Below are positions 27,100-30,859 of a stretch of 64,000 bases of DNA, piece by piece (the first letter of the stretch is position 1; every line of letters begins with the position of its first letter). This DNA comes from Roseibacillus persicicus. Lineage in GTDB: Bacteria > Verrucomicrobiota > Verrucomicrobiia > Verrucomicrobiales > Akkermansiaceae. The notes under the pieces are model-generated. The model was not told the DNA's origin. It ran no database searches and saw only the letters and a program-made list of their open reading frames with translations. The stretch is from assembly GCF_014651675.1 (NCBI RefSeq), contig NZ_BMXI01000003.1, positions 9,604 to 73,603 of the forward strand, written 5' to 3'. The translations under genes and the position numbers were made by a program.

Positions 27100-28401
27100 T
27101 CAACCGGCCTTTTCTTCCAGAAATTCTTTTAATCTTCCATCTAATGTTGGGGATACCACCGCAGTGACGATGACATCGTTGCCCTCAAAGTCCGTATTGA
27201 TGACTTTTCCTTCATTATGCAACAGATTGACCATATCTCCGCGACTTTGTGGAACACGATAGATTCGTCTTCTCACCCGGTCGGCCAGTTGGCCCTCCGC
27301 AGCCTTGATCAACTCCTCCATCCCGAATCCCGTTCGAGCTGATATCTCAATGGCATCGGGGAAGCTTTCCCGCAGGCGAGTCAGTTCCGCCCCCACTCCC
27401 AGACGATCCACTTTATTAAGTACGGTCAGAGCCGGTTTGTCCCCCGCTCCCAATTCCTCGAGTACTCCTAAAGTCGTGCGGTAAAAGACCTCCACCGCCG
27501 GGTCGCTGGCATCCAGAACATGAATGAGAAAGTCGGCAAGCACAGCTTCCTCCAGCGTCGACTTGAACGCTTCCACCAGGCGGTGGGGCAAGTTGCGCAC
27601 GAAACCAACAGTATCTGTTAGAAGAAGAGGTTGGCCTCCGGGCAGCTCGATGCGACGGGTCGTGGGATCCAGGGTCGCAAAGAGTTGGTCCGCTTCGTAA
27701 ACTTCCGAACCCGAGAGCTTGTTGAGCAAAGTAGACTTTCCCGCATTGGTATATCCCACAATGGCAGAAGAAGCGACATCGTAGCGATCGCGATCCTTGC
27801 GGCGAGTGGCCCGCTGACGACGGACGATCTCCAGGTCTTTCTTGATCTGGGTAATCTTGTTTCGGGCGAGACGGCGATCGATCTCAATCTGCTGCTCTCC
27901 CATTCCTCGCGAAGCTCCGCCGCCGCCTCCGCCCCCCCCGCCTCCTTCGCGGTCGAGGTGTCCCCACATCTTCGCCATTCGTGGCAGGGCATATTCCATC
28001 CGGGCCAGCTGCACCTGCAACTGGGCCTCCTTGGTGGAAGCCCGCTTGGCAAAGATATCGAGGATGACTTCCTCACGGTCGATCACCGTGATGCCCGCCT
28101 TCCCTTCCCAATTCCGTTGCTGGGATGGCGACAGACCATTGTCCACAATCAGGCAGTCGCAGTTTTTCTCCCGCGCCAGTTCCACCACCTCATCCGATTT
28201 GCCCGTGCCACAGATGAAGGCCTTGTGCTGGGCGCGAACTCGAATGAGCTCCATCCCGACGACCCCAATCCCTAGAGTATCGACGAGCTCTTCCAATTCT
28301 AACAGCAGGGCCCGAGCCTCTGCTTCTTCATCACTCTTAAAGTAGAAACCGACCAACAGCGCCCGTTCCACTTGGTCGGGCTTTTCGCGAACCTCAAACA
28401 T
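27100..28401 (-). CDS. hflX: Ribosome-associated GTPase HflX
   Basis: 433 residues. N-terminal HflX domain (1-190, VVGMELIRVRAQHKAFICGTGK, LIVDNGLSPSQQRNWE) that splits stalled 70S ribosomes, then GTPase domain with G1 GYTNAGKS, G3 DTVGF, G4 NKVD. A run of about 10 glycines (GGGG... at about 150-160) replaces the usual short glycine linker before ASRGMGEQQIEIDRR; the underlying DNA is a GC-rich CCN run. Follows the thioredoxin selenoprotein by 35 nt on the same strand and is probably co-transcribed. Confidence 0.96.
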   Translation of the reverse strand: MFEVREKPDQVERALLVGFYFKSDEEAEARALLLELEELVDTLGIGVVGMELIRVRAQHKAFICGTGKSDEVVELAREKNCDCLIVDNGLSPSQQRNWEGKAGITVIDREEVILDIFAKRASTKEAQLQVQLARMEYALPRMAKMWGHLDREGGGGGGGGGGASRGMGEQQIEIDRRLARNKITQIKKDLEIVRRQRATRRKDRDRYDVASSAIVGYTNAGKSTLLNKLSGSEVYEADQLFATLDPTTRRIELPGGQPLLLTDTVGFVRNLPHRLVEAFKSTLEEAVLADFLIHVLDASDPAVEVFYRTTLGVLEELGAGDKPALTVLNKVDRLGVGAELTRLRESFPDAIEISARTGFGMEELIKAAEGQLADRVRRRIYRVPQSRGDMVNLLHNEGKVINTDFEGNDVIVTAVVSPTLDGRLKEFLEEKAG

Positions 28402-28436: not shown

Positions 28437-29087
28437 TCAAGGGGCAGGAATCCGCTGAATCCCCGGTGGCAGACCGTCATTCTGCACCGCTGGTCGAATC
28501 GCCGGCACCACCGGAGCGGCTACGGGCGCTTCCTGCCCCTCTTCTGGAAGATTGGAGCTCGGTTCACTCGGAGCTGTTTCCACCGGCCGCACGGATGACA
28601 GGTAGTTCGTCACCATATTCTTCAAGACCTTCTCGCTGCAGCTGCCCACGAATTTTCCTATCTGTTTTCCGTTATGAAAGATCCGGGTATCGGGAATGCT
28701 TCTCACTCCATATTCCTGTCCCATCTGCGGATTTTTACCGAGATCGACCTTGGCGTATTGGACCCCGGGCTGGCCCTGACTTGCGAGTTTCCCCATCACG
28801 GAGGAAAGCTTTCTGCAGGGTGGTCAAGTATCAGAATAGAACTCCACTACCGAGATCCGATCACCCGCCGCGATGAACGATAGCATCGTAGAGGGAGTGA
28901 TGGTCGAGAAACGCTTCACCACCGGCAAACCATCCACTCCGGCCAATGACTCGGAATCCGGTAGAGCGGGAGCGGCCATCTCTTCGCCCGCACTTGCGAA
29001 CTCGCTCAGACTCTTTTTGATCTGCTTGCAACCGAAACCAGACACCACAGCGAGTGTCAGAATGGTCAACTTGAAAGCTCCGCTCAT
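28437..29087 (-). CDS. Selenoprotein: thioredoxin-like lipoprotein (UGA at codon 88 = Sec, UPPC)
   Basis: 216 residues once the TGA at 28826-28824 is read as selenocysteine. Residues 1-20 form a lipoprotein signal (lipobox SGFGC, Cys20). The thioredoxin fold starts near 70: ISVVEFYSDT, then Sec88-Pro-Pro-Cys91 where thioredoxins have WCGPC, then VQYAKVDLGKNP, the cis-proline segment VRSIPDTRIF (Pro132) and GKQIGKFVG. The frame is unbroken on both sides of the UGA and only the first active-site Cys is replaced, so it is a selenoprotein rather than a pseudogene. A Pro/Glu-rich tail (160-216) follows. Periplasmic or outer-membrane facing. Upstream of hflX. Confidence 0.88.
28788..28807 (-). promoter_or_regulatory. 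Bacterial SECIS hairpin of the thioredoxin-like gene
   Basis: Minus strand: TTTCC, a bulged T, CC, loop GTGAT, GG, GGAAA. The bulged U on the 5' side and a loop beginning GU are the two features SelB needs in the E. coli fdhF element. The loop G lies 24 nt after the UGA. Confidence 0.8.
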
Positions 29088-29227: not shown

Positions 29228-30859
29228 ATGCCCGACCAACACGACCGCGAACTCCAAATTATTGAATCCGTAGCCGATGCCCCTCCTTTGAAAAAGTTTG
29301 GGGCCTATGCCAAGCTCTCCGGCCCCGGCTGGCTCCAAGGAGCCATCACCTTGGGTGGCGGCTCTCTAGCCGGCGCCCTCTACATGGGCATCATCTCCGG
29401 ATACGGCCTGATGTGGCTGCAGCCTCTCGCCATGATCTGCGGCATCATCATGCTGTCGGCAATTGCCTACGTAACCTTGGCGACTGAGCAAAAGCCTTTC
29501 CAACAGATCAACCGCAACCTTTCCCCCCTCCTCGGCTACTCTTGGATTTTTGCCACCATCCTGGCCAACATCGTCTGGTGTATGCCCCAGTTCGCATTGG
29601 CGACCGGAGCGATTCAGCAGAACCTCTTTTCCGCATCTGTCCCCAAGGGGCTCATCGTAGCGGTCCTTCTCGGTATCGGTCTTTACGTCAACTTTCTATA
29701 CGAGGCGGGAGCCAAGGGCATCAAGGTCTTCGACAATATTATCAAGGTCATGGTCGCAATCATCGTTCTCTCTTTCTTCCTGGTGGTCGTCACCTTGAGT
29801 AAGAACGGTGCCCTGCCCTGGGGTGAAATCCTCTCGGGCTACCTCCCCGACTTCTCTCTGCTCAATCGCCCCGCTTCCGTCTTCACCGGGCTTATTGAAC
29901 AGTCCTCCAATTCGACCTGGTGGAACGAGCGCATCATCGGTGAGCAAAAGGACCGCATCTTCACCGCCTTCGGCACTGCTGTTGGCATTAACATGACCTG
30001 GCTCCTTCCCTACACTCTGCTCAAGAAGCGCTGGGGAGCCAAGCATCGCGGACTTTCCATTGTCGACCTGTCGATTGGCTTGTTCATTCCCTTCTTCCTG
30101 GCGACTTCTTGCGTGGTCATCGCCGCCGCCTCGCAGTTCCATGGCAAAGTGGATGACGTGCTACTCGCCGATGGAACCCCTCGTCCCGAAATGGTCGAAG
30201 TGGTTGAAAAGACCCTCAAAGGCCTCGAGTCCCCCACCCAAGTGGACACCGAATTGGCCGCAATGCTCGTCAGCCGCGACTCCTTCGCCCTCGCGACGAC
30301 TCTCGAACCTCTGGCTGGCGAAGCCGTTTCCCAAAAGATCTTCGGCGTCGGGGTTCTCGGAATGGCAGTCTCCACCATCATTATTCTCATGCTGATGAAC
30401 GGCATTGCTTTCCGCGAACTCCTCGCCAAGCAAACTGCCGCGGCCGGGGCCAAAGGCGGAAGCCTCATCGCGCAGAAGTGGCCATACTTCCTCGGTTGCC
30501 TCATCGCTGGTGGCGCGGGTTCCCTCGGACCATTCGTCTGGGGTGGAGCGGCACCTTACCTCGCCGTCCCCACTTCCGTTATTGGCGGAGCGCTCATCCC
30601 CATTGCCTACTTCACCTTCCTACTTCTGATGAATTCCAAGAAGGTCCTCGGTGACAAGCGCCCTGAAGGCAAAGCGCGCATCATCTGGAACACCCTGATG
30701 ATCACCGCCACCACCATCGCCACCTTCGGTTCCATCTGGGCCATTCATGGCAAAAAGCTCGGCAGCTTCCCCGCCGGGATGCTGGGAGTAGCTTTCCTCG
30801 TTATCCTTTTTGTGGTTGGCCTCTTCTCCTTCCTCAAACACGAGAAGGAAGCCAGTTAG
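29228..30859 (+). CDS. Nramp-family divalent metal transporter-like protein
   Basis: 543 residues, about 11-12 membrane helices. N-terminal SGPGWLQGAITLGGGSLAGALYMG is the planctomycete/verrucomicrobial variant of the first Nramp helix, without the DPGN motif that binds manganese in canonical Nramp. Helix 6 (AFGTAVGINMTWLLPY) lacks the usual MPH too, so metal transport is uncertain. A 60-residue extracytosolic insert lies near 310-370 (GKVDDVLLADGTPRPE). Strong terminator follows. Confidence 0.8.
   Translation: MPDQHDRELQIIESVADAPPLKKFGAYAKLSGPGWLQGAITLGGGSLAGALYMGIISGYGLMWLQPLAMICGIIMLSAIAYVTLATEQKPFQQINRNLSPLLGYSWIFATILANIVWCMPQFALATGAIQQNLFSASVPKGLIVAVLLGIGLYVNFLYEAGAKGIKVFDNIIKVMVAIIVLSFFLVVVTLSKNGALPWGEILSGYLPDFSLLNRPASVFTGLIEQSSNSTWWNERIIGEQKDRIFTAFGTAVGINMTWLLPYTLLKKRWGAKHRGLSIVDLSIGLFIPFFLATSCVVIAAASQFHGKVDDVLLADGTPRPEMVEVVEKTLKGLESPTQVDTELAAMLVSRDSFALATTLEPLAGEAVSQKIFGVGVLGMAVSTIIILMLMNGIAFRELLAKQTAAAGAKGGSLIAQKWPYFLGCLIAGGAGSLGPFVWGGAAPYLAVPTSVIGGALIPIAYFTFLLLMNSKKVLGDKRPEGKARIIWNTLMITATTIATFGSIWAIHGKKLGSFPAGMLGVAFLVILFVVGLFSFLKHEKEAS

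Follow-up and report, generated by a model that had tools for sequence, protein, structure and literature searches.

The window, a stretch of 64,000 nucleotides of Roseibacillus persicicus DNA, carries on its minus strand a frame of 216 codons (29087-28437) that runs from an ATG to a terminal TGA and has a second TGA, at codon 88 (28824..28826), as its sole interruption. An in-frame TGA also lies immediately upstream of the ATG. Read through as its homologues suggest, this gene (28437..29087) would give a protein of 216 amino acids with selenocysteine (Sec, U) at residue 88, composed in order of a short start with one Lys, a hydrophobic stretch, Cys20, a linker, VVEFYSDT-TGA-PPCRK, the remaining thioredoxin domain with the cis-Pro P132, and a proline-rich tail. 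These coordinates and positions agree with an earlier reading made from the letters alone (the sequence-only reading), which had described a single minus-strand frame holding the leader Cys, the TGA, PPC and the cis-Pro. Downstream, after a gap of 35 nt, lies a minus-strand gene (27100..28401) that we take to be an hflX-like GTPase gene, and on the plus strand a divergent gene (29228..30859) presumably encodes an Nramp-like transporter.

The thioredoxin domain was placed at residues 65-159 (28611..28895, minus strand) by Pfam, AlphaFold and Foldseek. The read-through protein scored 66.1 bits against Pfam Thioredoxin (PF00085; cut-off, 23.5). In the AlphaFold models (17 window and locus proteins), mean pLDDT was 79.1, with 10-residue block means of 95-98 over residues 61-160 and low confidence at residues 1-50, and position 88 directly precedes a helix at residues 89-104. 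The top PDB matches found by Foldseek were nearly all thioredoxins, and rmsd was 1.1-1.5 Å for 13 of the 20 best rows. Both UxxC and the cis-Pro are present on this fold, and the resolving cysteine of UPPC, Cys91 (28815..28817, minus strand), and P132 (28692..28694, minus strand) are both present in every one of the 17 aligned members. The fold of the window gene product is supported by these comparisons.

Conservation of the TGA and presence of the Sec machinery

A survey of 386 genomes from the order with the family profile found TGA at exactly the same codon in 11, i.e., the own genome (G000) and ten others, these 11 genes being non-independent in that G277, G328 and G338 are near-copies; this count leaves out family matches with a tabulated internal TGA that scored less than the lowest Sec member (123.7 bits). 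The active site is UPPC in G000, G035, G233 and G334, UGPC in G016, G026, G257, G277, G328 and G338, and UAPC in G002, and FY[ST]DT or YYSDT precedes it in all 11 genes. By the taxon codes of the survey, the Sec genomes belong to three genera of one family. The domain continues past the TGA in the ten other Sec genomes, the contig of G334 ending inside the gene. There are 59 in-frame TGAs in the window with at least 60 open codons on either side, and a UxxC motif occurs at one of them; because of this count and the same TGA in ten other genomes, the observation exceeds chance. A sequencing slip (TGA for TGC or TGT), which the sequence-only reading had named as grounds for abandoning its proposal, is very unlikely since ten other genomes carry TGA at the identical codon.

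Comparison with homologues for Cys or Sec, which that reading had also proposed, gave Cys or Sec at this position and Ser in two genes, with Sec tracking selA. Among members scoring at least 123.7 bits, selA was found in 10 of 11 Sec genomes versus 7 of 50 non-Sec members (Fisher p = 2e-6), where the active-site residue was read in 27 of the 50 and the other 23, having no internal TGA in the table, were counted as non-Sec. A selA match was present in 120 of the 386 genomes overall; in the profile search selA was not found in G257, and in G328 it was found in two pieces, each under the cut-off. The tRNA-Sec gene was detected in 9 of 11 Sec genomes and in 5 of 6 selA-bearing Cys/Ser genomes tested, and in none of 6 Cys genomes negative for selA; it was not found in G277, G328, or the selA-bearing Ser genome G290. 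All 13 new candidates were typed as tRNA-SeC by ARAGORN. The two Sec genomes in which tRNA-Sec was not found (G277 and G328) are drafts of about 200-290 contigs, and each of the 11 Sec genomes has selA and/or tRNA-Sec.

These data bear on the explanation that the TGA is a true stop, in a pseudogene or through an assembly error, with the downstream ORF (28437-28799) as a remnant. An ordinary gene caller would indeed end the gene at this TGA, and long TGA-interrupted frames are common in the window, as the 59 cases attest; however, the recurrence of this TGA in ten other genomes, where the domain runs on beyond it (one of them truncated by its contig end), the association with selA, and the covarying hairpin described below make a true stop extremely improbable.

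In non-Sec members whose active site was read, Cys was found in 26 genes and in one member of a tandem pair in G332. The two Ser members, GSEPC in G290 (L098) and TSAPC in the second tandem copy of G332 (L099), are both in genomes with selA. Their Ser codons, TCT and TCC, differ from Cys codons by one base and from TGA by two, and a direct replacement of Sec by Ser is thus unsupported. In a tree of 43 rows constructed with the active-site residue masked, Sec genes fell in two places: G000 and G002 inside Cys relatives, and the others in a clade that also holds the Cys gene of G014 and the Ser gene of G290. Sec requires at least four changes on this tree, two of which are forced by the starred branches, and gain and loss are indistinguishable by this count.

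Two further scans were conducted. A scan of contigs with the site back-translated in Cys codons gave 51 loci and, because of these codons, is blind to TGA versions. The pattern FY[ST]DT-TGA-xPC, searched in 387 genomes of the phylum, matched G000 and G016 among the genomes listed, with no match of the reversed control there; nine of the eleven Sec genomes are absent among those listed, and YYSDT forms are missed by the pattern.

The sequence-only reading had called for a check of selABCD and would have been refuted had the machinery been absent; all four were found in the host genome (G000; 92 contigs, 97.5% complete). Its tRNA-Sec (selC) scored 59.6 bits (cut-off, 47) and was typed by ARAGORN as tRNA-SeC with anticodon tca, and SelA scored 458.9 bits against a cut-off of 267.9. 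SelB and SelD, searched in this genome only, scored 324.1 bits (cut-off, 242.25) and 374 bits (cut-off, 125), respectively; the SelB gene lies on the same contig as the window, about 2.9 kb beyond its end, and the SelD gene has an in-frame TGA of its own (AGUASKLSQ). The presence of the machinery is supported by these profile scores.

In G001 and G003, which belong to the same genus and have the Cys forms CLPC and CGPC, the thioredoxin gene adjoins hflX-like and LysM/LDT-like genes as in the window. Three window neighbours were tested (hflX, LDT-like and Nramp), and three of three recur in G001, where the Nramp-like gene is also beside the thioredoxin gene, and two of three in G003. At eight of the ten other Sec loci (7-12 kb examined for each; G334 and G338 left out), hflX, Nramp and LDT were not found, and a conserved operon for the Sec forms outside the own genome was rejected on this basis.

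The hairpin after the TGA

A putative bacterial SECIS (bSECIS) hairpin with a 7-bp stem and the loop CGUGAU lies at 28788..28807 on the minus strand. With the TGA counted as columns 1-3, columns 20-26 pair with columns 33-39, and 72 of 77 cells are paired in the 11 Sec genes versus 88 of 182 in 26 Cys genes (CxPC family members; TrxA-like CGPC matches were excluded, and the Ser members and the Cys copy of G332 were left out). Mean energy was -8.4 in the Sec genes versus -3.9 for their synonymous recodings, and -3.9 versus -3.6 in the Cys genes. The covariation score was 0.444 (10 distinct rows) against a shuffled mean of 0.238, none of 500 shuffles equalling it and slid registers giving at most 0.21; two-sided changes occur at four hairpin pairs, a number reached by 29 of 500 shuffles. 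Hairpin covariation is supported on this alignment. No single gene proves the hairpin, because the fraction of recodings folding as well was 0.02-0.36 per Sec gene (pairing as well, 0.006-0.23).

The SECIS of E. coli fdhF has a bulged U and GU at the start of its loop, and the sequence-only reading had likened the window hairpin to it. Of this likeness, the hairpin itself just after the UGA and the GU in the apical loop (11 of 11 Sec genes) stood; the bulged U is not conserved, the position concerned holding U in 2 Sec genes and C in the other 9. The minimum-energy fold in the window has no bulged U, and its loop, CGUGAU, starts 23 nt after the UGA. The register proposed earlier, with a bulged base and the loop GUGAU starting after 24 nt, is nevertheless an alternative of nearly equal fit: with the loop as GUGNU, 91.4% versus 92.9% of cells are paired and the covariation score is 0.375 versus 0.444, the flush stem fitting as well or slightly better.

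The available portions of a 2026 review (PMC13188914) give as bSECIS limits a loop of 3-9 nt, a stem of 4-16 bp and G in the first two loop positions, together with 16-37 nt from the UGA and MFE <= -7.5 (Fig. 2A legend). All 11 Sec genes are within these limits (best of seven fold lengths), as are 318 of 1000 TGAs drawn at random from the window and, among the Cys homologues, 10 of 26; under the narrower loop rule G[GU] these numbers become 11 of 11, 159 of 1000 and 5 of 26. Since nearly a third of random TGAs pass, the evidence for the hairpin lies in conservation and covariation and not in one fold. Single-sequence stability was rejected as proof, for the same reason and because the window hairpin taken alone is unremarkable (57-nt fold, z = -0.36; 68 of 200 shuffles fold as well). 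A search of 28600-29000 against Rfam gave no family at E up to 10.

The Cys gene of G014 (L022) keeps six of the seven hairpin pairs and has -9.5 kcal/mol, the best of the 26 Cys genes. Its hairpin fails the bSECIS filter, the loop being changed and GU lost, and is possibly a relic SECIS in a gene that went to Cys.

The frame would be open whichever residue the TGA is given, and an ordinary residue (Trp, Gly or Cys) might be inserted there by code reassignment or near-cognate read-through. Against this, TGA also terminates the window gene, and the genome has tRNA-Sec, SelA and SelB; it is the catalytic Cys that is replaced, and the TGAs of other redox proteins of G000 are also at the catalytic position; and, of the genes tested, those with TGA retain the hairpin, as does a single Cys gene, that of G014. 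We regard insertion of an ordinary residue as having a negligible chance. Sec coding of the window gene is supported from several sides of the sequence comparison, and very probably its TGA codes for Sec in a real selenoprotein.

Predicted location and function of the thioredoxin

A putative type II signal peptide was assigned to residues 1-19 (MSGAFKLTILTLAVVSGFG; 29031..29087, minus strand) by a permissive motif search, followed by Cys20 (29028..29030, minus strand), the predicted lipidated N-terminal residue. The canonical lipobox is [LVI][ASTVI][GAS]C. The window copy, GFGC, is atypical, and relatives have clearer ones (LLAC, LTAC and SSC); this permissive search picks an earlier Cys in some rows (e.g., G277, G328 and G014) and found none in G031. 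The atypical lipobox and the low AlphaFold confidence at residues 1-50 would suit a real selenoprotein that is no envelope lipoprotein, having an unlipidated membrane anchor or another start and a cytosolic location. We consider this improbable, however, because a hydrophobic stretch is followed by an invariant Cys (Cys20) in all 17 aligned members, the lipoboxes of relatives are clearer, and an in-frame TGA stands directly upstream of the ATG. Export and lipidation of the window protein are likely from these leader features, and we infer, as the sequence-only reading did, that it would be exported with Sec intact.

In the mechanism that we propose, SelB and Sec-tRNA would decode UGA 88 as Sec under direction of the hairpin just downstream, and the precursor would be exported and then lipidated on Cys20. 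Outside the cytosol, Sec88 would attack a substrate disulfide and Cys91 would resolve it, the thioredoxin domain acting as a thiol-disulfide reductase or isomerase that is probably recharged with electrons by a DsbD-like membrane reductase of the same genome. Export and lipidation, as well as the DsbD partner, the substrates and the direction of the redox reaction, are here inferred from knowledge of the family. The earlier proposal of a Sec-x-x-Cys thioredoxin has gained support from the machinery, the TGA at the same codon in ten other genomes and the selA association. To the whole reading, that of an exported Sec88-x-x-Cys91 lipoprotein thioredoxin serving as an envelope thiol-disulfide reductase or isomerase with hairpin-directed decoding, we give a probability of roughly 0.86.

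Redox potential varies among PPC-type active sites, and the protein might accordingly be an oxidant or isomerase, or else the dedicated reductant of one peroxidase, in place of a general envelope reductase. For the latter role, G000 encodes a predicted lipoprotein candidate of PrxQ-like type (TPGU) that would need a thioredoxin-type donor; yet the hflX, LDT-like and Nramp neighbours include no peroxidase, and no genetic linkage was seen. Such a narrower or reversed function is conceivable, and we think it less probable than the general reductase.

Other candidate selenoproteins and relation to known families

G000 has six likely selenoprotein genes, SelD and the window gene among them, as well as a DsbD-like candidate; the list is incomplete because PF00578 missed one of them (L001), which was found by PF13905. 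Two are predicted exported redoxins with a thioredoxin-like domain (Thioredoxin_8 and AhpC-TSA matches) after an N-terminus that we take to be SHD1-like: L001 (SWUGPC; contig C16, 155945-156229, minus strand), about 0.6 kb from the tRNA-Sec gene, and L168 (SWUPPC; contig C10, 127622-127993, minus strand). The PrxQ-like candidate (L161; contig C2, 266277-266621, minus strand) has a lipoprotein leader (LLLVGC) and TPG-U-IKQC, with its TGA at the presumed peroxidatic position, and a cytosolic-looking peroxiredoxin-like candidate (L165; contig C17, 109401-109757, minus strand) has NWUPFC with its TGA at the catalytic position. The one DsbD_TM match found in G000 (L178:550-3063, contig C4) combines DsbD_N and DsbD_TM with a thioredoxin domain (CLTC) and an extra C-terminal copy of the latter; the copy is 36% identical to the CLTC one and carries TGA (2788-2790; ADW-U-LSAS) at the first active-site position. 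All six of these other TGAs, including that of SelD, pass the weak bSECIS filter. Of the whole set of G000, four or five look envelope-bound.

A tentative extension, which we hold as a possibility below even odds, is a selenium-based envelope thiol relay, in which electrons would run from the cytosol through the DsbD-like protein, whose extra domain carries the TGA, to the UPPC thioredoxin and the two SHD1-like redoxins, and on to the PrxQ-like lipoprotein. If this is true, most use of Sec would fall outside the cytosol, and unfolded polypeptides bearing a free selenol would be translocated across the membrane as a matter of routine.

Thioredoxins typically have W-C at the start of the active site, and the window protein differs from known ones in having DT-U in place of W-C; against the TrxA equivalog TIGR01068 it is below the cut-off (63.9 of 96.8 bits). 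To the same family belong the Cys lipoprotein thioredoxins of the order (G001, G003, G009, G012, G014 and others), which in G001 and G003 have the same neighbours as the window gene and which differ in having Cys for Sec; of the 26 read, only G014 has six of seven hairpin pairs. Among established selenoprotein families, two reviews (PMC13188914; PMC9312934) and the Sargasso Sea survey (PMC1088965), in the parts available, include the UxxC thioredoxin (PF00085). The window protein shares with it the PF00085 domain, UxxC with Sec first, and an in-frame UGA with a downstream bSECIS, and adds the leader, the lipobox-like Cys, the N-terminal linker and the proline-rich tail.

The sequence-only reading had called the envelope an unusual place for a selenoenzyme. 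It is not a unique one, since the same reviews, in those parts, already include extracytoplasmic selenoproteins, namely DsbA-like, TonB-dependent-receptor and multihaem-cytochrome proteins (PMC13188914) and a DsbG-like one (2022; PMC9312934), and G000 has more candidates with export leaders. The DsbA-like, DsbG-like and PF13098 thiol:disulfide interchange selenoproteins, periplasmic by name in these sources, share the thioredoxin-fold UxxC with the window protein but are of different Pfam families, PF13098 giving only 22.3 of 27 bits here. In the portions available, DsbD appears once in PMC13188914, as a rhodanese/DsbD fusion-like protein, the words 'lipoprotein' and 'Verrucomicrob' are absent from both reviews, and putative selenoproteins are reported in Planctomycetes (PMC4807772). 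Full-text searches of the open-access literature, as far as its text was accessible, gave no description of an envelope lipoprotein branch of UxxC thioredoxins.

What looks apparently new is therefore a conserved, predicted envelope lipoprotein branch of the known UxxC thioredoxins, one of whose Cys genes has retained the hairpin, and the predicted exported set around the window gene is more interesting than the UxxC thioredoxin alone. Since gene callers that stop at TGA would split such genes, the number of envelope selenoproteins in this group may be underestimated. Close relatives hold Sec, Cys and Ser versions, Sec and Cys occurring beside the same neighbours within one genus. Because of these versions and the hairpin-keeping Cys gene, Sec/Cys exchange is directly testable here, in a compartment that raises the questions of what selenium contributes and how a selenol is exported.
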